The notes: generated by a model not told the origin, from the sequence alone. Positions 18,439-32,721 are shown, counted from the stretch's first letter. The stretch is DNA of 64,000 bases from Acidobacteriaceae bacterium (GCA_025356095.1 JANXUR010000077.1:1-64000), one strand, 5' to 3'. Numbers and translations: made by a program.

Positions 18439-19215
18439 CTACTGGTGTACAGGCGTTGCAGCAGCTTGAATTTCTGCGACGCTTCGCGGTACAGTCTTCC
18501 GCCACGTTTCTAGCAGCCCAGGATTCGCCGCAAGTTCAAGCTCGATCGCGGCAATCTCCTCGGGAGAGAAATATGTACGGCGCTTGCGCGCAACTTTATC
18601 CGCTGGAATGTTGGCATAGATCCACGTGCGATAGCTCTTCAGACCATTCGCGTAGCCACGATGAATCGCCTCCAAGTCGGTGCGGCGCTCAAACCCAATG
18701 GTGTAGCTGGGGGAAAACAGGCGAATCAGCCCAAAGCGACGCAGACGGTTGCCGTGAGTTAAGTCGCGCACGTGGACAAGTTCATGTGCCAGAATCGAAC
18801 AGACACCGTCGGCAGGCGCGTTGCGGTCAAACAACAGCGGGTTCACCTCCACGTAGTAGCGCATCGGGAACAGGAGAAGAAATCGCCAGATGCTGAAGCG
18901 GGTGCGGAAGTAATCGTAGTCGCTGTGGAAGGCACGAACTTGCCAGTCACGGTGGGCAACCTCCGGGTAGGATTTGGTGGCAACCTGTGTAGCCATCGCA
19001 AAGATTCGACCCGCGCTAACGCCGTCATCTGTGACAGAAGCCACTGTGCCAATGTCACGACGAAGTGGCCCGGAAGCAACCGATGTCGAGCTAGCCTGCA
19101 TGCAGTCCACGCCGATGAACCGCGAAGGGGAATTCTGCGCAGGAACTGGCGAACCCGCACACGCCAACAGTAGGGACATACTTGCGACAAACCTTGCCGT
19201 GAAGCGCAGCCTCAT
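18439..19215 (-). CDS. Secreted zinc metalloprotease-like protein (HELVH)
   Basis: 258 residues. A signal peptide runs to about residue 27 (LLLACAGSPVPAQ, cleavage before NSP). The zincin motif is H144-E145-L-V-H148, and the likely third ligand lies in FERRTDLEAI (E176), matching the gluzincin/M48 arrangement HExxH...ExxxD. The protein would act outside the inner membrane. Its ATG overlaps the stop of the large fusion gene by four bases (ATGA), so the two are made together. The family is M48-like by motif only, and the overall length is short for known members. Confidence 0.7.
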   Translation of the reverse strand: MRLRFTARFVASMSLLLACAGSPVPAQNSPSRFIGVDCMQASSTSVASGPLRRDIGTVASVTDDGVSAGRIFAMATQVATKSYPEVAHRDWQVRAFHSDYDYFRTRFSIWRFLLLFPMRYYVEVNPLLFDRNAPADGVCSILAHELVHVRDLTHGNRLRRFGLIRLFSPSYTIGFERRTDLEAIHRGYANGLKSYRTWIYANIPADKVARKRRTYFSPEEIAAIELELAANPGLLETWRKTVPRSVAEIQAAATPVHQ

Positions 19216-21995
19216 TCCGGATAACCCCTCGCCAGCTTGCGATAGTAGGGGATCAGCCGAAGTACTTCGAGTACAGACGTGGGTTGAACCCCGCGCGCGC
19301 GATTCTGGTCACCAATCTCAAACGCAATACGCCACTGCTCAAAGAGAGTTGCGTAGGCTTGCGAAATGCTGAACTTGGGGTCATAGATATGCGTGGCTTC
19401 GGAAGTCACGCCATTGAGTTCTACCACACGAACATTTCGACCAGCTTGCAAGTCTTCGCGCGAGGGAGCGCGCACGTCGAAGCGGCCAAAGTAGAAGCCG
19501 TCGTAGTGCTTGGCGATACTATCAGTTGCGTCTGTCAGGGCTTCGCTAATGAGGTCGCTGCCATCGAGAAAGATGGCACCGCGACAGTGTGTGCCCAGTT
19601 CGACCAACTGAACCTGTTCGCCCGCTGCGGGCACCGAGTCTAAGCGCGCCTCATTCTTACCGAGATAAAACTTACCCATGCAGACCGCGCGATCATCTTC
19701 CAGAATCAGATGCTCCAGCGTGCGCTTGCCGTCTCCCGTCATCACGGGCATACGCTTGTCTGTGATGGAGAAGATCTTTCCACGCTGCTGATTGGGAAAG
19801 CGATAGTAGAAAATGCCGAACTCTTCGCCTGGCAGATATTCCTGCAAAATTGCGGGGAAATCAGCATGCGACAGGTAACCATGCAGCTCTTCGGCGGAGC
19901 GAATCACACCTACTCCCGAACCACGCTGCCCGGCATCGGGTTTGAGTACAACCGGATAGGAGAGTTGGTGTTCGCGCAGAAAGGCCTCGGCCTGCTCGAC
20001 TCGGGCGTACGGCGTTCCTACTGGAATCAGTGTAAACAGAGGCATCCACGGCTTGGCACCGGCGAGCGCGGCGAGAATCTCGTGCTTCTCTTCCCCTAGA
20101 AAACCACCAGCAGGCATCGCCGGATTCGCTGCCGTGAAAAGTGTGAAGTTGCGATAGCGCAAACCAAGATAGAGCACATAAAGCACAACCGGGGGATAGA
20201 AAACATAGGGTGACCAAAACTCCCATCGCAGCTTGCGCTTCCACCAGCCAACCAAACTGCGTCGGCCGCGATAGGTGAGGAGTTTTTCCGCCAGCTTGGC
20301 AAGGACGAAGATGGCAGCCCCGCCCACCAGTAATTTTATGGACAGCGGCTGACGACCCAGAAAATCGCTGTGTACAAATGGCAGGCCGAGACCAGCGGCC
20401 ACGCTGACGATAAGGGGCGTCCACACCGCAGCCGCGAGTAGGAAGTAACCGAGGAACTTACGGACGGGAGTTCGCAAAACTCCGGCTGTAAAGTAGGTGG
20501 GCAAGCGAGCGCCGGGAGTAAAGCGGGCGATAAAAACCATCGCAGCCCCGTTACGGGCAAGCCAATCGCCAGCGCGTTGCAAGCTGTCTTCCCCTAAAAC
20601 CCAACGCAGTGGCGGACGCCGCAACGCAGCACGGCCAAACAGCCGCCCCACTATATACAGCAGCAAGTCGCCAAAGAAAATTCCAACAAAGCACGCCAGA
20701 ATTGCGGGCAGCAGCGCCAATCTGCCTTCGGCAACCAGCACCCCCGCAGTAATGCAGGCACCATCCTCACTTAAGAAAGTCGCCAACGCCAGAATCAACA
20801 GCGTCACCGCACTCGTGATGAAGCCGGGCTTGGGCCAGTGCTCGGTATCCATAGGCGCAGCAGCGCGGGCCACGCGGTCAGCGGGCGCGGTAGCACGCGT
20901 GACGGCGGTGCCCGCTTCCACCTGCGCTGCGAAGGGGACAAATGCCGCCAGCAAGGGGCGGGGCTCCATAAACGTCATAAAATGGCTGGCTTCGAATTTG
21001 CCGCCAAACTCAGAATGCTCAGTGCTATGGAAGATGTGAACTTCACTCTGCGGCACCAGCCGCCCCGCCTCATAAGCAGCCTCGACCGGCACGAGCGGAT
21101 CATCCTGCCCCTGCAGAATGAGCATTGGCCCCTGATAGCTCTGCAAAATGCCGCGCAGCGGGCGCTGATCCGAATCATAGAAATTGCGCGCGTACGGAAT
21201 CCCCATATCGGAGTGATTGAGCGAACCAAATCGCGGTACAAAGATACGGATGCCCCACAGCAAACCGAGTTGCGCTCCATGAATCCCGTGGTTGATGTGG
21301 TAGTCGCCCAGCATCTCCATCTCTTGCACGTTGATGGCGGATTGCAGGGTGACCGACGCAACGCGCTCGGGCGCAATGCGAGCCATTTGCAGCACAACGC
21401 CCCCACCCAGACTAAAACCGACCACGTGAGCGCGCCGAATACCCAGCTTGTCCATCAGCTCCAGCACATAGTGGGCATGGGCAAGAAATGAGTAGTCAGG
21501 CAGATCTTTACTAGAGTCGCCGAAGCCCGGCAGGTCGGGGGCAATGAGCCGGCGCTCACCGGGAATGCAGGTGAACGGGGTGTCGCTGGTCTCGCCGGGC
21601 CCTGTGGGGGCTTTGTGGCTCTCCGCAATCGGGTCGTGATTCAGCCGCAGCATATAAAGATCGAAAACATCGCTGTCACCGGGGCTGCCGTGCAACAGGA
21701 TGACCGGCAGCTTGCTGTCGTCTTGGGGTGCAGCAGGAACATCGCGGAAGGCGATGGTGACGTCGCCGGGGACAACCTGATCGCCGGAAACTGCAGACAC
21801 CGTAACCGTAGACTTGCCAATGGCAATGGCCTCTGGGGCCTGCTGGCGCATCTGCCAGCGCTGGTAGTAGGAGGCACCGAGCAGGATGACGTAGGCGGCA
21901 AGCAACGCAATGCCAACCCAGCGGAATATGCTGCGCCAGCGTGACCGGGCCGGTGGTGGCGCAACAGCATTGTTAACGACAGGCGAAGTGTACAA
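19212..21995 (-). CDS. Fusion protein: alpha/beta-hydrolase + DedA/VTT membrane domain + ATP-grasp
   Basis: 927 residues. One membrane helix is at 27-44. An alpha/beta-hydrolase fold spans about 95-345 with oxyanion HGSPGD (102-107), nucleophile S195 in GFSLGG, acid D298/D299 and candidate His 327. A VTT/DedA (SNARE-associated) membrane domain spans about 390-570, with LSEDGACITAGVL and FIARFTPGARLPTYFTAG. A second helix is near 598-612. A C-terminal ATP-grasp domain spans about 655-895, with the glycine loop KPDAGQRGSGVGV, D840 and VVELNGVTSE (E859, N861) as metal/ATP ligands. The start is TTG with GAGGAG seven bases before it. The domain set suggests a lipid- or envelope-directed enzyme that couples ester cleavage, membrane transfer and amide ligation; this is inference. 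I do not know this three-part fusion. Confidence 0.85.
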   Translation of the reverse strand: MYTSPVVNNAVAPPPARSRWRSIFRWVGIALLAAYVILLGASYYQRWQMRQQAPEAIAIGKSTVTVSAVSGDQVVPGDVTIAFRDVPAAPQDDSKLPVILLHGSPGDSDVFDLYMLRLNHDPIAESHKAPTGPGETSDTPFTCIPGERRLIAPDLPGFGDSSKDLPDYSFLAHAHYVLELMDKLGIRRAHVVGFSLGGGVVLQMARIAPERVASVTLQSAINVQEMEMLGDYHINHGIHGAQLGLLWGIRIFVPRFGSLNHSDMGIPYARNFYDSDQRPLRGILQSYQGPMLILQGQDDPLVPVEAAYEAGRLVPQSEVHIFHSTEHSEFGGKFEASHFMTFMEPRPLLAAFVPFAAQVEAGTAVTRATAPADRVARAAAPMDTEHWPKPGFITSAVTLLILALATFLSEDGACITAGVLVAEGRLALLPAILACFVGIFFGDLLLYIVGRLFGRAALRRPPLRWVLGEDSLQRAGDWLARNGAAMVFIARFTPGARLPTYFTAGVLRTPVRKFLGYFLLAAAVWTPLIVSVAAGLGLPFVHSDFLGRQPLSIKLLVGGAAIFVLAKLAEKLLTYRGRRSLVGWWKRKLRWEFWSPYVFYPPVVLYVLYLGLRYRNFTLFTAANPAMPAGGFLGEEKHEILAALAGAKPWMPLFTLIPVGTPYARVEQAEAFLREHQLSYPVVLKPDAGQRGSGVGVIRSAEELHGYLSHADFPAILQEYLPGEEFGIFYYRFPNQQRGKIFSITDKRMPVMTGDGKRTLEHLILEDDRAVCMGKFYLGKNEARLDSVPAAGEQVQLVELGTHCRGAIFLDGSDLISEALTDATDSIAKHYDGFYFGRFDVRAPSREDLQAGRNVRVVELNGVTSEATHIYDPKFSISQAYATLFEQWRIAFEIGDQNRARGVQPTSVLEVLRLIPYYRKLARGYPE

Positions 21996-22149
21996 GCAAA
22001 GCTCCTCGCGGTTAGTTTACAGGAGCAGAGGCCGAGCGATTTCAGGCAGCCTCTGGTGCCCGGCTGGCCCAGGGTGTATGTTGTCGGTGTGCAGGCGTTT
22101 GGATCCGCTTGGCACTCTCATGAAGCTTTTCAGTGGGAGGAGAACCACC

Positions 22150-23695: not shown

Positions 23696-25318
23696 TCACC
23701 CGGAGCTATTGGAACTATTGAGCTTCGCTCTACGCCGATAGAATTCATCTTGGTCAAGCCGCAGCGCAATTTCGGCACAGCTATAACGATCGGCTTCTAC
23801 GAAACGACGCTTCTGAGATTCCGTCGCGGCCTCAGGGTCAAGAAGCCACAACCAGTCGTAATACTCCGACTGATCTACAATTGCCGGGAACACTCGCGCG
23901 TTCCACAACGTGCGCTGACTCACCGATACGTCTTGCGGCCAGACGTCTGCCCACACAATCCCGACGGCGTCCAACCAAGCCTGCATTGGCCTGCCGCAAA
24001 ACGAACCGCCTCCCGCCAGTGACTGCTTGAACGAGTCATCAATATCACACACCCTCAGAAACAAGATGCTTTCTCCATTGCGCCCGCTACCGCTCGAGAC
24101 GTCGAGACACGCCCCGCGCCTAAGTGCAAGTGGCTTGGTCACGTCCAAACCAATTAGTGCGTTCAAGCCGCCAAGCGATACTTCTGACGAGAGCGAACAG
24201 CCTTCAATCCAGCAATCACTCGCAACCACATTAACCTTCACCGCGCTATTCAGTACTAAATCGCACGCACCCACTTCGCCTCGGTCGGCAGCGATCAGAG
24301 CGCATCCACTCGAAATCAGTTGGCGGGTAGTGCCGAAATGCAGAAACTTGCAGCGCGGCAACACTTCTACGCGGAACGGAATGCACCTGAGATCAGCAAA
24401 CAACTCAGCGAGCGCTGATGAATCAAGAGTGGATCCAGATTCCCTCACTGCTTCTAAGTATTGATCCGCGGTAACTTCGCTCCCAAGCGCACACGATATC
24501 TCGCGGTAAAGGTCGATGCCGTGATGCAACAAGTGTTGCCAAACTCCATCCTTCCAGATAAGCTCTTGACTTCCCGATCCATTAGTGCCCTCTATGAAGA
24601 AGGTACGCATCAGTTGGACAGCGGACTCGGCATCGAAGCTCATCAGACCCACATCAAGCATTGACCTCCCGCTTCCATCTATAGCCCCGGCCACCTTTTG
24701 CCTCTCTGGCGATGGCTTTTGCAGAAACCTGCGCACTACTCCATCTACATCGGCGCAAAAGACACCATGAAGGGCAGCCTCTTCTGGTGGAGCGAGACAC
24801 CCTGCAGCAGTAATGCCGCGTCGAGTCAAGTCCACTGCGGACGCCTCCATGAGAAGAAGGGCATCACCTGCCGCCACCACTACTTCACCTTTGCCCGCTG
24901 AAGGTAGAGCTAGGAAAGTGGGAAGTAACCGATCGAATAGGGTTGTCGTAGTACTATTACCGCGCGCGGAAGGCACCGGCACGAACATCTTCCCGCAGTG
25001 AGAGTATGCGGGCAGACGGCGAGAATCACCACCAGCGTGAATGATCAGGATCCGGAGGCCGCTCAGAATCGCTTCCGCCTCCGAGAAGCTCATTCCCCCT
25101 TGTTGCTGATGCTGTAGCACCATATTCAAGCAATGGAGCGTGCTACCGCCGCTGCCCATGCGCTCACCATTTAAGTCCGCGATCACAAGACAGTGGTGGA
25201 CTACCGTAAGCGCGTCAGAGCCTTTACGCCGTCGCAACTGACCTTCGTATGCCTCCGCTTGCCGCTCATTTGCAGCAGTAACTATTAAATAATCCCAAAT
25301 AATTGCGGCAGACGCCAC
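23696..25318 (-). CDS. L-fucokinase / GDP-fucose pyrophosphorylase-like protein
   Basis: 540 residues. The N-terminus matches the pyrophosphorylase half of FKP/fucokinase: GSGGSTLHCL at 55-64 (nucleotide loop) and LIIHAGGDSRRLP at 91-103. A beta-helix-like middle follows (about 330-410). The length suits the N-terminal half of the Bacteroides FKP enzyme, and the GHMP half is not attached; a short GHMP-like protein is encoded two genes downstream. The likely role is to activate salvaged fucose as a nucleotide sugar, by inference. It lies 57 bp downstream of the fucosidase gene. Confidence 0.75.
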   Translation of the reverse strand: MASAAIIWDYLIVTAANERQAEAYEGQLRRRKGSDALTVVHHCLVIADLNGERMGSGGSTLHCLNMVLQHQQQGGMSFSEAEAILSGLRILIIHAGGDSRRLPAYSHCGKMFVPVPSARGNSTTTTLFDRLLPTFLALPSAGKGEVVVAAGDALLLMEASAVDLTRRGITAAGCLAPPEEAALHGVFCADVDGVVRRFLQKPSPERQKVAGAIDGSGRSMLDVGLMSFDAESAVQLMRTFFIEGTNGSGSQELIWKDGVWQHLLHHGIDLYREISCALGSEVTADQYLEAVRESGSTLDSSALAELFADLRCIPFRVEVLPRCKFLHFGTTRQLISSGCALIAADRGEVGACDLVLNSAVKVNVVASDCWIEGCSLSSEVSLGGLNALIGLDVTKPLALRRGACLDVSSGSGRNGESILFLRVCDIDDSFKQSLAGGGSFCGRPMQAWLDAVGIVWADVWPQDVSVSQRTLWNARVFPAIVDQSEYYDWLWLLDPEAATESQKRRFVEADRYSCAEIALRLDQDEFYRRRAKLNSSNSSG

Positions 25319-25375
25319 GTGACTGGCCCCCCAATCCTCGGTCTAGCTGAATGCGTCTGTCCCAACACCGCCCGG

Positions 25376-27019
25376 TCACCGAAAGGAAATCCGAAACACA
25401 TACCCGTGCGCTCCTGGATTCTGCTGGGGCATCTGAATATGCAGCCCATCGTCACGCTGGTCGAATGCCAGTCCGTCGCTGGCAGCGCCCAGCAAGGCCA
25501 CTGAGCTGACACTCGGATGCTCCCCTAGCAGACCCTTAGCGAGTGTATGAATAACAGCTTCGCCGTTCGCTGGCCATGCCATCTCGATGGCGTAAAGTAT
25601 CTTGTTCTTAGTAGTGAACCGGAAGTCTTCAGCCGTATATGGCTTCACATCGGTATCGTGAAAAGACCCTTCCTGCACTCTCGTTGGACCTTCTCCGTAC
25701 ACTTTCCACGGACGGGTGCCGTAAATTGCCTCACCATTTACCTTAAGCCAACTGCCTACCTCTAGTAAAACTTCTTGAGCAGGCTCAGGGATCGTGCCAT
25801 CAGATCGCGGCCCAATATTCAGCAGTAGGTTCCCATTCTTACTCACGATATCTACTAACTGATGAATAACAAATCGAGGAGACTTGAAGGTATCATTTTC
25901 AATGTAGCCCCAGGACTTGTTGCTAATGGATGTGTCAGTCTGCCAATACTGAGAACGTATTCCTGCAAGTTGACCCCGTTCCAGATCCAGAACTGCAGAT
26001 TGCTCTTGCATTGCAAAATCTTTATAGTTAATCACGCCAATCGGTTCACCATTTTGTTGGGAAACATTGTAGTAGAACGATGCAAAGCGTGCCAGATTGT
26101 GCCTAACGGCGGCTTGCCCAATCCACCAGTCGAAGTACATGACCTCAGGGTGATATTTTTGCACGATCTCGACGGACCTCGCTAGCCAGTCGTCTGTCCA
26201 TGCCTTAGAGACGAAGGTAAAGTCGTTAGAAAGAGGTGTGCCAGCTCTCGCCTCAAGCCAGTGGTGGGCTGGGCCGTAAAAAGAAGCGTTCTGCGGGTCG
26301 TTAATGTCTGAAGGAAACCCACGACCGACGCCCAAGAAGAAATTGTGCTCAACCCGGTGTGAGGACGCACCAAGATGAAGACCTTCATTTCGAATCGCCT
26401 GCGCGAGATCTCCCATTAGGTCGCGCCTAGGCCCCATCTTCGCTGCTGTCCAGTCGGAAAGGTCACTATCGTACATCGCAAAGCCGTCATGATGTTCGAA
26501 GACCGGAACCACATAACGAGCCCCAGCCGCCTTGAACAGGCGGGCCCAAGCTACAGGATCGAAGTGCTGAGCCTTGAACGAAGGCACAAAATCCTTGTAC
26601 CCGAACTTGTCTTGGGTTCCATAAGTAGCGATGTGGTGCTTATACTCATCGGAACCCTCCGTATACATCATCCTTGGGTACCACTCGCTGCCAAACGCTG
26701 GCACGGAATAGACGCCCCAATGAATAAATATCCCGAACTTCGCGTCCATATACCAATCGGGAACCTTGTAATTCTGAAGTGACTCCCAGTCTGGCCGGAA
26801 CGGTCCGTTGGCGTTCACCCGGTCTACCTCAGCAAGGATGGACGCGCGCTTGCCATCATACTTGCTAACAGCTTTCTGCCATATTTCGTCAACAGCTGCA
26901 GGGTCTTGGCTCGCGGTAGGTGCTACCGCTAGTGGCCTCTGGCCAAATGCCCCACTAGACGCGAGCAATAACGCCACAGTCCCGGTCATCGCAATCTTTA
27001 GTACGCATGGTCTAATCAT
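25376..27019 (-). CDS. Secreted GH29 alpha-L-fucosidase
   Basis: 547 residues. A signal peptide runs to about residue 27 (LLLASSGAFGQ). GH29 hallmarks are FGIFIHWGVYSVPAFGSEWY (95-114), VFEHHDGFAMYDS (173-185) and the nucleophile D297 in VMYFDWWIG, then SWGY near 390. The enzyme releases L-fucose from glycans such as xyloglucan. The ATG at 27019 is chosen over a longer frame because the signal peptide starts there, and it lies 19 bp after the fucP stop. It is periplasmic or exported. Confidence 0.92.
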   Translation of the reverse strand: MIRPCVLKIAMTGTVALLLASSGAFGQRPLAVAPTASQDPAAVDEIWQKAVSKYDGKRASILAEVDRVNANGPFRPDWESLQNYKVPDWYMDAKFGIFIHWGVYSVPAFGSEWYPRMMYTEGSDEYKHHIATYGTQDKFGYKDFVPSFKAQHFDPVAWARLFKAAGARYVVPVFEHHDGFAMYDSDLSDWTAAKMGPRRDLMGDLAQAIRNEGLHLGASSHRVEHNFFLGVGRGFPSDINDPQNASFYGPAHHWLEARAGTPLSNDFTFVSKAWTDDWLARSVEIVQKYHPEVMYFDWWIGQAAVRHNLARFASFYYNVSQQNGEPIGVINYKDFAMQEQSAVLDLERGQLAGIRSQYWQTDTSISNKSWGYIENDTFKSPRFVIHQLVDIVSKNGNLLLNIGPRSDGTIPEPAQEVLLEVGSWLKVNGEAIYGTRPWKVYGEGPTRVQEGSFHDTDVKPYTAEDFRFTTKNKILYAIEMAWPANGEAVIHTLAKGLLGEHPSVSSVALLGAASDGLAFDQRDDGLHIQMPQQNPGAHGYVFRISFR

Positions 27020-27038
27020 AGTGCCACTTTCCTCCCAA

Positions 27039-28367
27039 CTACTCTCCTGAATCGTAAGCCAGCCCGGATCTCGGTGACCCGGAGTACGAATACAGCGCAA
27101 TAACAATGTACGAGCCTAGAGGAATCACGTATGCCAGCGCCACACTGTGAAAAGCCTCTGACATCAGCCCCATGAGTGGTGTGAGTACTGCACCACCAAC
27201 AATTGCCATGACAAGAAGTGAGCCTCCAATCTTCGTGTTGGGGCCAAGCCCCTTTAGCCCCATGGCGAAAATTGTTGGGAACATTAAAGACATGAAAAAA
27301 CTCGTCAGAAATATGCACCACAGACCAAGCCAGCCTGAAAACACCACACCAATGGATACCAGCACAACGTTGCCGAGACTGAACGCACCCATCAATTGAT
27401 TGGGGGCTATGGATCGCATCAGATATGCAGCAGCGAAGCGCCCAATGCCAAATGCCAGCAGGGTGCCCGTCAAAAAGTAACCAGCGACCTTTTCTGGCTG
27501 ATGAGTAGCCTCCTGCACGTATTGAATAAAGTAACTCCACGTCCCCACCTGTGCACCAACATAGAAAAACTGTGCTACCACAGCTAACCAAAAATGGGGG
27601 TAGCGCAGTAGTTCCGCGAAGCGGCCATGATCCGCACTATTGCCTTCGTGCTCATTTTGAATGACCGGAAACTTCGTACGCAGAATCAGCACTGCCCAAA
27701 TGAAGGCGAATATCCCGATTACCAGATAGGGCCGAATGACGCGTAGTGTCTCCGTGCGCAAGTACGCTTCGTATAGTCCTTGTGCTCTACTCTCCGCAAT
27801 TTGCTGCGGGGAAAGCTCGACACCAGAGAAGATGAACACGGTGCCAATGAGCGCGCCTGAAATGGCGCCTAAAGGATTGAATGCCTGGCAGAAGTTCAAT
27901 CGCTGTTCTGAGGTGCGGGCATCGCCCATCTGCGCAATAAATGGATTGGAGGCAGTCTCTAGAAAAGACAGGCCGCTCGCGATAACAAATAAAGCTACAA
28001 GGAAGAATCCATAACTGCCGGCGAGGGCCGCTGGCCAAAACAAAAAGCAACCACTGCCGAACAGCAGTAATCCGATGAGGAAGCCAGCCTTGTAGCCTGC
28101 TTTCCGCATGATCAGCGCGGCAGGCATCGCGAGTACGAAGTATCCGACGTAGAAAGCAGACTGCACCAAGCTCGCCTGAAAGCGCGTAATGGCGAAAGAC
28201 TTCATGAACTGGCGAATGAGTACGTCATTCAGGTTGTTGGGGATGGCCCAGAGGAAGAACAAGCCTGTGACCAAGACGAAAGGAAAAAGATTCCCCGGAG
28301 GGAAAAGGTTCTGGGCGCGCTCAGAAGCATGCGAATTCGTCAACTTACTAGCTATCGCATCTATCAT
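27039..28367 (-). CDS. fucP: L-fucose:H+ symporter
   Basis: 442 residues with 12 helices (MFS, FucP family). WAIPNNLNDVLIRQF carries D48 and SGLSFLETASNPF carries E137, matching the essential Asp46 and Glu135 of E. coli FucP. NFCQAFNPLGAISG is also typical. GGGAGGA lies six bases before the ATG. It imports fucose released by the neighbouring GH29 enzyme. Related permeases take galactose or glucose, so the substrate is likely but not proven. Confidence 0.9.
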   Translation of the reverse strand: MIDAIASKLTNSHASERAQNLFPPGNLFPFVLVTGLFFLWAIPNNLNDVLIRQFMKSFAITRFQASLVQSAFYVGYFVLAMPAALIMRKAGYKAGFLIGLLLFGSGCFLFWPAALAGSYGFFLVALFVIASGLSFLETASNPFIAQMGDARTSEQRLNFCQAFNPLGAISGALIGTVFIFSGVELSPQQIAESRAQGLYEAYLRTETLRVIRPYLVIGIFAFIWAVLILRTKFPVIQNEHEGNSADHGRFAELLRYPHFWLAVVAQFFYVGAQVGTWSYFIQYVQEATHQPEKVAGYFLTGTLLAFGIGRFAAAYLMRSIAPNQLMGAFSLGNVVLVSIGVVFSGWLGLWCIFLTSFFMSLMFPTIFAMGLKGLGPNTKIGGSLLVMAIVGGAVLTPLMGLMSEAFHSVALAYVIPLGSYIVIALYSYSGSPRSGLAYDSGE

Positions 28368-28484
28368 CGAGAATCCTCCCCATCATAGCTTAGGCCGGTC
28401 GCCAGCACGCCAGCTACTTGTTTCCATCGAGCGTGTACATCTATACCTCGCGGCAGCGATGCAGTGCCACCATATTCAGCCCGC

Positions 28485-29564
28485 TTAGTCCGCCAGACAA
28501 GATGTGGTACACGAACAGTCGTCTCGCACACTCTGTTTCAAGGTGTGGGCGGCACCACCCTGGCTCGAAGCGCGGGCAATTAACTGAATCCCCACAAGCA
28601 AACTTCTCGGCTGCCCCTCAGTTTTGCGCTTAATCAGGCCCATTGCAAGCTTCGCCGCATTGGCACCCAGGGCAGCGCTATCTTGGTCAATGCTAGTTAA
28701 AGGTACAACCAACAAGTCGCCGTAGTGCACGTTGCCACAACCCACAATCGCCACATCTCGCGGAATCTGCAGTCCCACTTCTAACGCCGCCCGCATGGCG
28801 CCCAGCGCAACTGGGTCATTCAAGCAAAATACGCCATCTGGCCGCGGAGAGAGTTCCAATAGCCTCTTCATACCGTTGTAGCCAGCCGTGTCGCCGGAGT
28901 CATCGCCGCGCCCGAATCTAATGCAATACTGCGGAGCTAACTCTAGTCCTCGTCGAGCGAGCGCCCTAGAATATCCCGCGTGACGGTCCACTGCTGTGCT
29001 TATCTCTAGCCCCCCAATATGCGCGATGGTCTTACAGCCAACATCAAGCAGATGGGTGGTTGCCAAATCACCAGCTGCAAGATCATCAATGCCGACAAAA
29101 TTTGCCTCGACTTCGGCGATCTTTCGATCTAAGAATACGAAAGGCACTTTTTGCTCTTGAATGCGGCGAACCGCCTCTGGGCTTGATTGCGTGGACGCCA
29201 AGATCAAGGCATCTACGCGTCGGGCTAACATTTGCTCAATCTCTCTACGCTCCAAATTTGCATCGTCTTCTGAAGAGGCAATAATTAAACTATAGTCGTG
29301 AGATCTTAACTTGGCGGAGATGCCCTTGGCGACCTCCGCGAAAAATGGATGAACAAGATCCGGCACAATAAGACCAATCAGATTTGTACGGCCGGTTACT
29401 AACGTTCTGGCAGCAGGGTTCGGCTGGTAGTTCAGATCTTTCATTCGTTGCAGCACGCGCTTACGCGTTGCGCTGCTAATATCTGAATGATTCCTGAGCA
29501 CCTTCGAAACTGTAACGACCGATACGCCCAAGTCGCGAGCGATATCTTTCATTGTGATAGCCAT
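28485..29564 (-). CDS. LacI-family transcriptional regulator
   Basis: 359 residues. The N-terminal helix-turn-helix and hinge (MKDIARDLGVSVVTVSKVL, then YQPNPAARTLVTG) are complete. The periplasmic-binding-protein-like effector domain spans about 60-335 and the C-terminal 25 residues are Cys/Ser-rich. It lies between the GH27 and fucP genes and probably controls the locus in response to a released sugar. A LacI-like palindrome precedes the first gene of the locus at 32757. Confidence 0.9.
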   Translation of the reverse strand: MAITMKDIARDLGVSVVTVSKVLRNHSDISSATRKRVLQRMKDLNYQPNPAARTLVTGRTNLIGLIVPDLVHPFFAEVAKGISAKLRSHDYSLIIASSEDDANLERREIEQMLARRVDALILASTQSSPEAVRRIQEQKVPFVFLDRKIAEVEANFVGIDDLAAGDLATTHLLDVGCKTIAHIGGLEISTAVDRHAGYSRALARRGLELAPQYCIRFGRGDDSGDTAGYNGMKRLLELSPRPDGVFCLNDPVALGAMRAALEVGLQIPRDVAIVGCGNVHYGDLLVVPLTSIDQDSAALGANAAKLAMGLIKRKTEGQPRSLLVGIQLIARASSQGGAAHTLKQSVRDDCSCTTSCLAD

Positions 29565-29641
29565 AGGTTGTCTGCAACGCAGTGATCAAAGTGCTACGGA
29601 TACAGCCGATTCGTGAAGCACGCGCGGCTCTGTCGCTTGCG

Positions 29642-31069
29642 TTAAGGGAGCGACGCGGCTGCTCTAGATAAGCGGTAAAACGCGCAACCGTGGGCGGGGA
29701 GAGTCACCGTCAGCGCAACTACTGGTCCCAACTCGGCGTGTTCCCATAGGTCCCGCAACTTGTAACTTCTGCCGGTCAAGTGTAACTTTTTCCAATCATA
29801 GCGCATCGTGGCGCTCGATTCAGTGAGATTAAATATGGCAAGATACTGATCGCTGCTTGTAGTGGACTCCGCTAACCAGACTGCTGCGTCATCGGTACTA
29901 ACTATAGGATGATTGCCTGTAGAGCTCTGGTCCACTTCGAGCACCTCGGGGTTGGTGAGCAAGGACAAAGTCCACGCATCCGTGCTAGGCAGGTCGCCGC
30001 CCACCATCAACGGTGATGGGAAGATTGCCCACAGGGTCAGCAGTGTTCTCTGTTCGTCGTGCGTAAGTCTAGTGCTCCGCGGATCGCCCCAACCTGGAGC
30101 AGGCCCTAGATGGCCCAGCGGAAGCATATCAGCATCGGGCCAATGGCCGGGTTGGGCTTTGCCCGCCCATTTGGCGACATAGGCAAACTGATCTCCGAGG
30201 CCCTTTGGATAGTCACTAGCATTGTGCCAGATATCCCAAATGTCGTCAGAAATCCGCCACATCTGTGCATACTGCCGCATCTCATCCAACTTCTCGACGG
30301 GTGCGGGGCCTGGGGAGAGGCTCAGCACAATAGGCCTTCCGGTCTTGTCTAGTGCCTTCCGGATCATGCGAATATCATCACCCTTATAAGGATGACTGCT
30401 TATGCAATCTACTTTAATTAGGTCTACACCCCAAGTGGCATATAGCTTCGCAATGGAATCGTAGTACTCCTGCCCTGCAGGACTGCTTGGTTTGGTTCCG
30501 AAATAATCAAAGTTCCACGGGCAGGTGTCAGAAGTGTCAGCTCCGTCCGCAGCAGAATAAGTTGAGTCAGCAATAGGAATGTTATTGACGACTGCCTGTT
30601 TAGGAATTCCGCGTAGGATGTGGATGCCAAACTGCAAGCCCAGCGAGTGGACATAATCGGCTAAAGGCTTAAAGCCGGCATCGTTCGCGGCAGAGGGGAA
30701 TCGGTTGACCGCAGGAGTATAGCGACCGAACTTGTCTAGACTATACTGAGAAGTTCTACTATTCCCTTCCGCCGTAGGGTTCGCAACAAACCATTCCATA
30801 TCAACCACGACATAGCGCCAGCCAAAGGATCTGAGATGCAGTGCCATCCATTCGGCGTTGGCTCTCACTTGAGCTTCACTCACCGTGGTTCCAAAGCCGT
30901 CCCAACTATTCCAGCCCATGGGCGGCGTTGTGGCCAAGGTTTGAGCCAGGCTTGCTGCGTTAGCTTGGCACACCAGGTCTTCCGTGTATAACAGCGTGAA
31001 GCAAAGGCATAGCGCAGCCTGCGCCGTCATCGCGAGGACTCGTCTGAGCTTCTTGATCTGACCTGTCAT
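29642..31069 (-). CDS. Secreted GH27 alpha-galactosidase
   Basis: 475 residues from the ATG at 31069, after AGGA eight bases upstream. The N-terminal signal covers about 1-38. Catalytic signatures are PPMGWNSWDGFG (49-60), nucleophile D221 in DLIKVDCIS and acid/base D275 or D276 in WRISDDIWD. CPWNFDYFG and GHWPDADMLPLG are also typical of the family. It cleaves terminal alpha-galactose and may instead act on related pyranosides. It starts 20 bp after the GH51 stop, so the two form an operon. The C-terminus has a beta-sandwich domain (about 385-475). Confidence 0.9.
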   Translation of the reverse strand: MTGQIKKLRRVLAMTAQAALCLCFTLLYTEDLVCQANAASLAQTLATTPPMGWNSWDGFGTTVSEAQVRANAEWMALHLRSFGWRYVVVDMEWFVANPTAEGNSRTSQYSLDKFGRYTPAVNRFPSAANDAGFKPLADYVHSLGLQFGIHILRGIPKQAVVNNIPIADSTYSAADGADTSDTCPWNFDYFGTKPSSPAGQEYYDSIAKLYATWGVDLIKVDCISSHPYKGDDIRMIRKALDKTGRPIVLSLSPGPAPVEKLDEMRQYAQMWRISDDIWDIWHNASDYPKGLGDQFAYVAKWAGKAQPGHWPDADMLPLGHLGPAPGWGDPRSTRLTHDEQRTLLTLWAIFPSPLMVGGDLPSTDAWTLSLLTNPEVLEVDQSSTGNHPIVSTDDAAVWLAESTTSSDQYLAIFNLTESSATMRYDWKKLHLTGRSYKLRDLWEHAELGPVVALTVTLPAHGCAFYRLSRAAASLP

Positions 31070-31089
31070 GCCGTCCATCCTATAAGGCG

Positions 31090-32721
31090 CTAAGTAGCCC
31101 ATTGGAATACGGAATACGAGCGGGGCGGAAGCTCCAGTGTAGTACGCGCGGTGGCGTTCGAGCCATTTGCGGCGGCCTGTGGTGCAACCCGGTTAGGCGC
31201 ATCAAAACTATTGACCGCCTTCAAATCGTCGCCAGTAAGTACCAATGCAGTAAGTAGGTGGGCGGCCGAATCTCCCTGCCAATTCATTTCGATTTGGTGA
31301 GATTTAGATAAGTCACGGTTCAACACGAATAAAGTGATCTTGCCGCTTTCCGGGTGAAACAGCCCGGTTATGTCTAGGTGGGGAACTTGCCCCATACCGG
31401 CCGCTTCGTAAGTTGAGCCACCTTCCACCAGCATATCGAGCACCGAGCCACGCGCATACTGGAGTGCCCAGTTGTAGGGGTGGAAAATAGTTTGCTGGAA
31501 CAGGCCATTGCCGTTGGTCATGATTGGGGCAATTACATTGATTAGCTGCGCCAGACAGGCGAGCTTTACGCGGTCCGCGTGGCGAATCAGGGTATTGATA
31601 ATGCCACCCACCAATAACGCATCTTCCAGGTTGTAAATCTCTTCCAGCAAGTGTGGGGCTTCGTGTCTGTGGCCATCCATCGCATCGCCACTGCGGGCGC
31701 GGTACCAGACGTTCCATTCATCAAACGAGAGCCACAGCTTTTTGGGGGAACGCTTGTGGCCTTGCACCATGTCGCAGACTGCCAGAGTCTCTTCAATCTG
31801 ACGATCCATCGTTAGATTGAGGGCCAGATACTTTCCGCTGTCATTGCCGGTTTCTTCTGGAGTGTTACCTACATAGCGATGCAGAGACAGAGCGTCCACA
31901 TAGTCGTAACACTGCTCTAGTACCTCGCGATCCCATTCCAGATAGGTTGGCATGGTAGGGCCACTGGATCCGCAGGCGATGAGCTTAAGCGTGGGATCGA
32001 CTGCCCGCATCTGGCGAGCGGCGTCGGCCGCCTTGTAGCCGTACTCTGTGGAGGTCATGTGCCCAATTTGCCAAGGGCCGTCCATTTCGTTTCCCAGGCA
32101 CCAATTCTTCACATCGTAGGGTTGGGCGATGCCGTGCTTGCGGCGCAGATCGCTCCAGCGGGTACCTTGGCCTACGTTGCAATACTCCACCAATGCAGCA
32201 GCGTCCTCTGCGGTGCCCGTGCCTAGGTTCAAGCCCATAAGGGGTTTGGTTCCCGTCTCACGGCTCCATGCCATAAATTCATTGGTACCAAACTGATTGG
32301 TGTTTAGCGTGTTCCAGGCTTTGTCCAGCACCTTGGGGCGATCCTGTTTAGGACCCACGCCGTCGAGCCAGTTGTAGCCAGAAACAAAGTTCCCGCCCGG
32401 ATAGCGAATGATGGGGACGCCCATTTGACGCACTAGACTCATCACATCCTTGCGAAAACCGTCGCCATCAGAGAGCTTTGAGCCTGGATCGTAGATTCCC
32501 TCATAGATCGCGCGGCCAAGGTGCTCTAGAAAGGAACCGAATAGATTCTGCTCCACGGGTGCGATACGACGACGTGTGTCCAAATAAACGCGCGCCGCGC
32601 CCGACGGAGAGGCCGGCGCAGACTGGCTCCAAAGTGCTGCGGGCAAAAGCGATCCTGCAGAACACGCAAGACCGACGCCGGCTGTTTGGCGCAAAAATCG
32701 TCGTCTGGATGAAGACGCCAT
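31090..32721 (-). CDS. Tat-exported GH51 alpha-L-arabinofuranosidase
   Basis: 543 residues. The start SSRRRFLRQTAGVGLA is a twin-arginine signal, so the protein is exported folded. GH51 motifs are complete: FLEHLGRAIYEGIYDP, IIRYPGGNFVSGYNW, acid/base E212 in WCLGNEMDGPWQ and nucleophile E335 in LSFDEWNVWY. It removes arabinofuranose side chains from arabinan, arabinoxylan or xyloglucan. AGGGGGA precedes the ATG. It is the first gene of the sugar locus. Confidence 0.93.
   Translation of the reverse strand: MASSSRRRFLRQTAGVGLACSAGSLLPAALWSQSAPASPSGAARVYLDTRRRIAPVEQNLFGSFLEHLGRAIYEGIYDPGSKLSDGDGFRKDVMSLVRQMGVPIIRYPGGNFVSGYNWLDGVGPKQDRPKVLDKAWNTLNTNQFGTNEFMAWSRETGTKPLMGLNLGTGTAEDAAALVEYCNVGQGTRWSDLRRKHGIAQPYDVKNWCLGNEMDGPWQIGHMTSTEYGYKAADAARQMRAVDPTLKLIACGSSGPTMPTYLEWDREVLEQCYDYVDALSLHRYVGNTPEETGNDSGKYLALNLTMDRQIEETLAVCDMVQGHKRSPKKLWLSFDEWNVWYRARSGDAMDGHRHEAPHLLEEIYNLEDALLVGGIINTLIRHADRVKLACLAQLINVIAPIMTNGNGLFQQTIFHPYNWALQYARGSVLDMLVEGGSTYEAAGMGQVPHLDITGLFHPESGKITLFVLNRDLSKSHQIEMNWQGDSAAHLLTALVLTGDDLKAVNSFDAPNRVAPQAAANGSNATARTTLELPPRSYSVFQWAT

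Follow-up and report, generated by a model that had tools for sequence, protein, structure and literature searches.

Ornithine-type aminolipids are found widely among bacteria and are linked to stress; to our knowledge, both the elaboration of their head groups and their passage across the membrane are poorly understood. Cyanophycin synthetase, GshAB, LysX/ArgX, RimK, and Ddl are amino-acid or peptide ligases that work through an acyl-phosphate. Aminolipids with two-residue heads (Gly-Ser and Orn-Tau) are known (PMC12493201), and in published accounts of the ornithine-lipid pathways (OlsBA, OlsF, and OlsH-OlsG-OlsI operons), no partner of the VTT, ATP-grasp, NRDE, or DinB type is included (PMC12493201, PMC11631085). 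One review of ornithine lipids and other aminolipids does mention ATP-grasp, solely in connection with acyl-histidine (PMC11631085). Among DedA proteins, a residue network in UptA (E32/Q64/R112/R118/W146) matters for binding of undecaprenyl phosphate (C55-P) (PMC11474028).

Here, we describe a gene that carries an alpha/beta hydrolase, a VTT/DedA membrane domain, and an ATP-grasp ligase on one chain, behind an N-terminal transmembrane helix. It lies in a 64,000-nucleotide stretch of DNA from an Acidobacteriaceae bacterium (GCA_025356095.1 JANXUR010000077.1:1-64000; hereafter, the window), on the minus strand at 19212..21995, as an ORF of 927 aa with a TTG start. A Shine-Dalgarno-like GAGGAG (22002..22007, minus strand) is located 6 nt upstream of the TTG, and the earliest internal Met codon is residue 48, downstream from the transmembrane helix. 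The original prediction had proposed a triple fusion at this position, giving no strand; the ORF is indeed there, and the residues that it named (S195 in GFSLGG, FIARFTPGARLP, E859, and N861) are correct. It had also raised the possibility of a cloning or assembly join of two genes. The same module order is repeated in independently sequenced genomes of several phyla (in frames of roughly 850-1085 aa), so the fusion is not an assembly join, and it is genuine. A chance ORF is ruled out by three conserved modules with catalytic residues.

The N-terminal transmembrane helix (aa 23-41; 21873..21929, minus strand) is predicted from hydropathy, is preceded by basic residues (N-in), and appears in the model as a helix spanning residues 19-52. 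The alpha/beta hydrolase follows at aa 95-350 (20946..21713, minus strand), with Pfam matches to Abhydrolase_1 (PF00561; aa 97-220, 97.9 bits vs. a cut-off of 25.8) and Abhydrolase_6 (PF12697; aa 98-322, 52.5 bits vs. 26.3). The profile matches, combined with a Ser-Asp-His triad (S195-D299-H338) that is invariant in all 18 aligned triple-module members, place it in the alpha/beta hydrolase superfamily. Folding drew only on sequences of the window and of related loci. In the full-length model (built from five sequences; mean pLDDT 58), the hydrolase part has a pLDDT of about 25-55, which is too low to use, and we therefore make no claim regarding its fold. Based on hydropathy and the positive-inside rule, the hydrolase is predicted to reside outside and the ATP-grasp domain inside.

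The VTT/DedA module occupies aa 391-573 (20277..20825, minus strand). Its VTT_dom match (PF09335; aa 416-532, 64.8 bits vs. a cut-off of 33.9) is sufficient to assign it to the DedA/VTT family, and the paired re-entrant-loop arginines and acidic partner of UptA and YqjA are present (R491 in 32 of 33 aligned members, R497 in all 33, and E410 and D411 each in 32). Moreover, the conserved residues D411, D443, R491, R497, and W525 are spaced like the five network residues of Bacillus subtilis UptA, the profile of which spans aa 417-541 of the fusion. However, the module is distinct from the UptA-type C55-P flippases in several respects: it scores 59 bits against the UptA equivalog cut-off of 250, a conserved Asp (D443) takes the position of Q64, and it is joined to two enzymes and located in aminolipid operons. 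The last VTT helix is followed by a strongly basic stretch.

Beyond this stretch, an invariant WEFW segment leads through a membrane-proximal helix to the ATP-grasp domain (together aa 585-900; 19296..20243, minus strand), in which the ATP/metal residues K685, D840, E859, and N861 are invariant across 33 aligned members. In the domain-database search suggested with the prediction, the hydrolase and VTT modules exceed their Pfam cut-offs but the ATP-grasp domain exceeds none (best match ATP-grasp_3, 17.6 vs. 23.2), and it matches cyanophycin synthetase and other ATP-grasp profile models weakly. The ATP-grasp module is nonetheless evident from its motifs, and structure prediction, also suggested, supports the fold. 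The domain model (pLDDT 85, pTM 0.83) identifies the C-terminal module as a member of the ATP-grasp superfamily, the closest solved structure being cyanophycin synthetase (7wae; Z 16.8, rmsd 4.1, 269 residues), followed by GshAB, LysX/ArgX, RimK, and Ddl (Z from 16.8 down to 12.5 for the set, with rmsd about 4 over 200-275 residues). The metal-binding E/N pair is shared with these enzymes. In contrast to known ATP-grasp ligases, the fusion has its own conserved N-terminal part (WEFWP...NPAxPxGGxxGESK) and a membrane-proximal helix, and its sequence falls below the Pfam ATP-grasp cut-offs. It should be noted that a fold match between a model and solved structures does not assign a substrate.

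The order N-terminal helix, hydrolase, VTT/DedA, and ATP-grasp occurs in the window's phylum, Gemmatimonadota, and Planctomycetota, including full-length relatives at 44-46% identity in one Longimicrobiales and one Gemmatimonadetes genome. Of 297 genomes sampled from the window's phylum, 39 have a strong match to the ATP-grasp module, many of them in frames of about 850-1000 aa, and frames of triple size were found in Gemmatimonadota and Planctomycetota as well. Relatives are labeled by NCBI as “VTT domain-containing protein,” “D-alanine--D-alanine ligase,” or “hypothetical protein.” The claim that no protein with this order has been described agrees with our literature search (which fell short of most subscription journals), in which we found no published description of the architecture or its operon, nothing linking DedA, ATP-grasp, and alpha/beta hydrolase, or ornithine lipid and DedA, and nothing joining any three of NRDE, DinB, ATP-grasp, and VTT; the architecture itself, however, is common in genomes. 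The parts belong to known superfamilies, with the ATP-grasp domain outside the named Pfam families, and an aminolipid-associated membrane ligase is undescribed in the literature searched. A distant relative of the ATP-grasp module was also seen in a Woesearchaeota bin (L010:2965-3618).

The modules also occur in other arrangements. One planctomycete and one desulfobulbacean have a two-module VTT-ATP-grasp version that lacks the hydrolase, and the hydrolase step is therefore probably optional. In Vibrionaceae, VTT and ATP-grasp are neighboring separate genes. In Paracoccus denitrificans, the ATP-grasp (PDEN_RS24485), hydrolase (RS25810), and VTT (RS24475) are three adjacent genes; unlike the fusion, the modules are unfused, the VTT gene is on the opposite strand, and the annotated hydrolase has no clear N-terminal transmembrane helix. 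In four members (L067, L163, L164, and L165), the hydrolase and ATP-grasp domains are linked by a membrane region in which the VTT domain is degenerate or replaced by other helices, its motifs having been lost or never present, and all four lack nearby ols genes, which suggests that the VTT module is tied to the ols link. We regard VTT plus ligase as the likely core in ols-linked members, with the hydrolase as an add-on. In a quick tree, the triple label requires five changes, of which supported branches force only one (L067 was labeled as triple although its VTT domain is degenerate), and by this sequence comparison a single origin of the triple fusion with later losses is neither shown nor excluded.

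In relatives, the fusion ends a same-strand operon of OlsB, OlsA, DinB-like, NRDE/TANGO2, and fusion genes. We mapped neighbors at 64 loci from four phyla by calling, clustering, and naming them. The recurrent families are OlsB-like Acetyltransf_5, OlsA-like acyltransferase, DinB-like, NRDE/TANGO2, ferric-reductase/Rieske, c8, and DoxX/MauE-like proteins. The fuller run (FerricReductase-Rieske / c8 / OlsB / OlsA / DinB / NRDE / HYD-VTT-ATPG / DoxX, on one strand and mostly in this order) is seen in the window's phylum, Gemmatimonadota, and Planctomycetota, although its completeness varies among loci. Of 41 triple loci, 36 have OlsB nearby, as do 10 of the 19 VTT-ATP-grasp loci, and 29 of the 39 carrier genomes of the window's phylum have it within 4 kb of the gene. 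Within that phylum, OlsB co-occurs with the gene in 33/39 genomes, compared to 19/258 noncarriers (Fisher p 2e-24, a value that ignores relatedness); we give more weight to the recurrence across phyla and alongside a different kind of synthase. A single run in Vibrio and Photobacterium comprises VTT, ATP-grasp, DinB, NRDE, DoxX, and OlsF, and in Variovorax, OlsB starts about 10 nt after the ATP-grasp gene. The best NCBIfam matches of the neighbors score well under the ornithine equivalog cut-offs (OlsB 139.7 bits vs. 320; OlsA 141.9 bits vs. 300), and we therefore leave the head-group amino acid unassigned. Upstream of OlsB, many loci (among them L167, L168, and L074) encode a ferric-reductase-like/Rieske fusion together with the c8 protein (~270 aa), which may serve to oxidize the same lipid.

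The linkage does not extend to every copy. No ols genes were found within 7 kb on either side of the P. denitrificans, Azospirillum, and Komagataeibacter copies, and our genome searches found neither OlsB nor OlsF in four carriers (G104, G253, G291, and G293). There are likewise no ols genes beside the window's own copy, the neighbors of which are an HExxH protein, a transporter, and sugar-degradation genes. The HExxH gene (258 aa, metallopeptidase-like; 18439..19215, minus strand) has a 4-nt overlap with the fusion stop and no Pfam match, and has a homolog adjacent to the fusion at two other loci (L060 and L062). OlsB was not found in the window's genome, in which the sole ols-type gene found encodes an OlsF-like protein of 612 aa on another contig (C54; L100:2693-4531) that scores 420 bits against a cut-off of 620. 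An OlsF-like protein is likewise encoded by the genomes G176, G027, and that of L009.

Overall, the sharing of conserved operons with OlsB/OlsA or OlsF suggests that the substrate is an aminolipid of the ornithine-lipid type, and the fusion is most likely a membrane-anchored enzyme that modifies such a lipid; we infer both the substrate and the reaction. That it acts on aminolipids of the OlsB/OlsF type is probable, and that it extends their head group through an amide bond is possible, if tentative. In the mechanism we envisage, OlsB/OlsA or OlsF would produce an N-acyl, O-acyl amino acid lipid carrying a free carboxylate, and the cytoplasmic ATP-grasp domain would turn that carboxylate into an acyl-phosphate and couple the activated lipid to an amino acid or amine, thereby extending the head group. 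The VTT/DedA module would bind the lipid and flip the product; on the far side, a serine hydrolase (or transacylase) in the periplasm might edit the ester chain or the head group. Head-group extension at the inner face is suggested because ATP-grasp enzymes of this kind phosphorylate a carboxylate and join an amine to it, and flipping of the product because some VTT proteins bind and move lipids. As OlsB, OlsA, and OlsF already supply the N- and O-acylations, the ligase needs another step, and a modifier acting after the synthase would also fit the genomes (19 in our sample) that have OlsB without the fusion. The prediction had envisaged an enzyme that cleaves, flips, and ligates a lipid-linked or peptidoglycan substrate. 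The part that holds is a hydrolase, a lipid-membrane domain, and a ligase directed at one lipid substrate, narrowed to an aminolipid by the ols operons; we found no pointer to peptidoglycan, and strict coupling of the three steps is doubtful in view of the two-module version and the four members with a degenerate or replaced VTT domain. A broader reading, which we regard as rather doubtful, is that the family represents a new transmembrane class, present in several phyla, whose single chain would attach a second amino acid or amine to an acyloxyacyl aminolipid inside the cell, flip the product by means of the DedA domain, and edit it outside, and that this class is the missing enzyme type for two-residue heads (e.g., Orn-Tau and Gly-Ser).

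Could the ligase instead perform the N-acylation itself? It would then provide a route other than OlsB, activating a (hydroxy) fatty acid as the acyl-phosphate and joining this to an amino acid, with the hydrolase as an O-acyltransferase like OlsI of Singulisphaera. There are precedents for both steps, because the acyl-histidine of Legionella is reportedly N-acylated by an ATP-grasp enzyme (PMC11631085) and an alpha/beta hydrolase performs the O-acyl step in planctomycetes (PMC12493201), and some members are without any OlsB or OlsF. However, most members adjoin OlsB plus OlsA, or OlsF, which cover both acylations, and the closest folds are amino-acid and peptide ligases. The hydrolase shares with OlsI its fold class and its setting in an aminolipid gene cluster (a likeness by description, not by sequence), but its predicted topology is periplasmic, apart from acyl-ACP, and OlsA is present in most loci. 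We thus consider this scheme unlikely.

Two further explanations dispense with aminolipids altogether. Given that the best-characterized DedA proteins flip C55-P (PMC11474028, PMC12893004), Ddl is among the fold neighbors, and NCBI calls some relatives D-alanine--D-alanine ligase, the protein could handle undecaprenyl phosphate or a peptidoglycan precursor, combining DedA/UptA-type recycling with esterase and Ddl-like ligase activities. The conserved neighborhood makes this quite improbable, as it contains acyl-amino-acid lipid genes and includes no peptidoglycan-synthesis gene among the identified recurrent families. The recurrent DinB-like and DoxX/MauE-like neighbors, and the presence of glutathione synthase among the nearest folds, would instead fit a small-molecule or stress conjugation system, in which a thiol or metabolite ligase works with DinB, DoxX, and NRDE and travels with ols genes only because both are stress-induced. 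A membrane ligase joined to a VTT domain, in tight order with OlsB/OlsA/OlsF over distant phyla, favors a lipid substrate over this very unlikely option.

Modification of an ornithine-lipid-type aminolipid is thus the reading that we prefer, and an ols operon with a membrane ligase, a DedA flippase-like domain, and a hydrolase provides candidate genes for head-group elaboration and membrane crossing. Such genes are available in culturable P. denitrificans, environmental Vibrio, and Azospirillum. If the proposal is correct, the function of DedA proteins would broaden past undecaprenyl phosphate.

With regard to the rest of the window's genome, there is no second copy of the fusion, and searches returned distant VTT and hydrolase matches only. 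Separate alpha/beta hydrolase and DedA genes adjoin on another contig (C72; L101:2192-5186), downstream from an acetylornithine-aminotransferase-like gene, a second such pairing in this genome. Within the window, a plant-glycan style cluster (23696-32721, minus strand) comprises genes for a fucose pyrophosphorylase domain protein, an alpha-L-fucosidase, an MFS transporter, a LacI regulator, an alpha-galactosidase, and an alpha-L-arabinofuranosidase.
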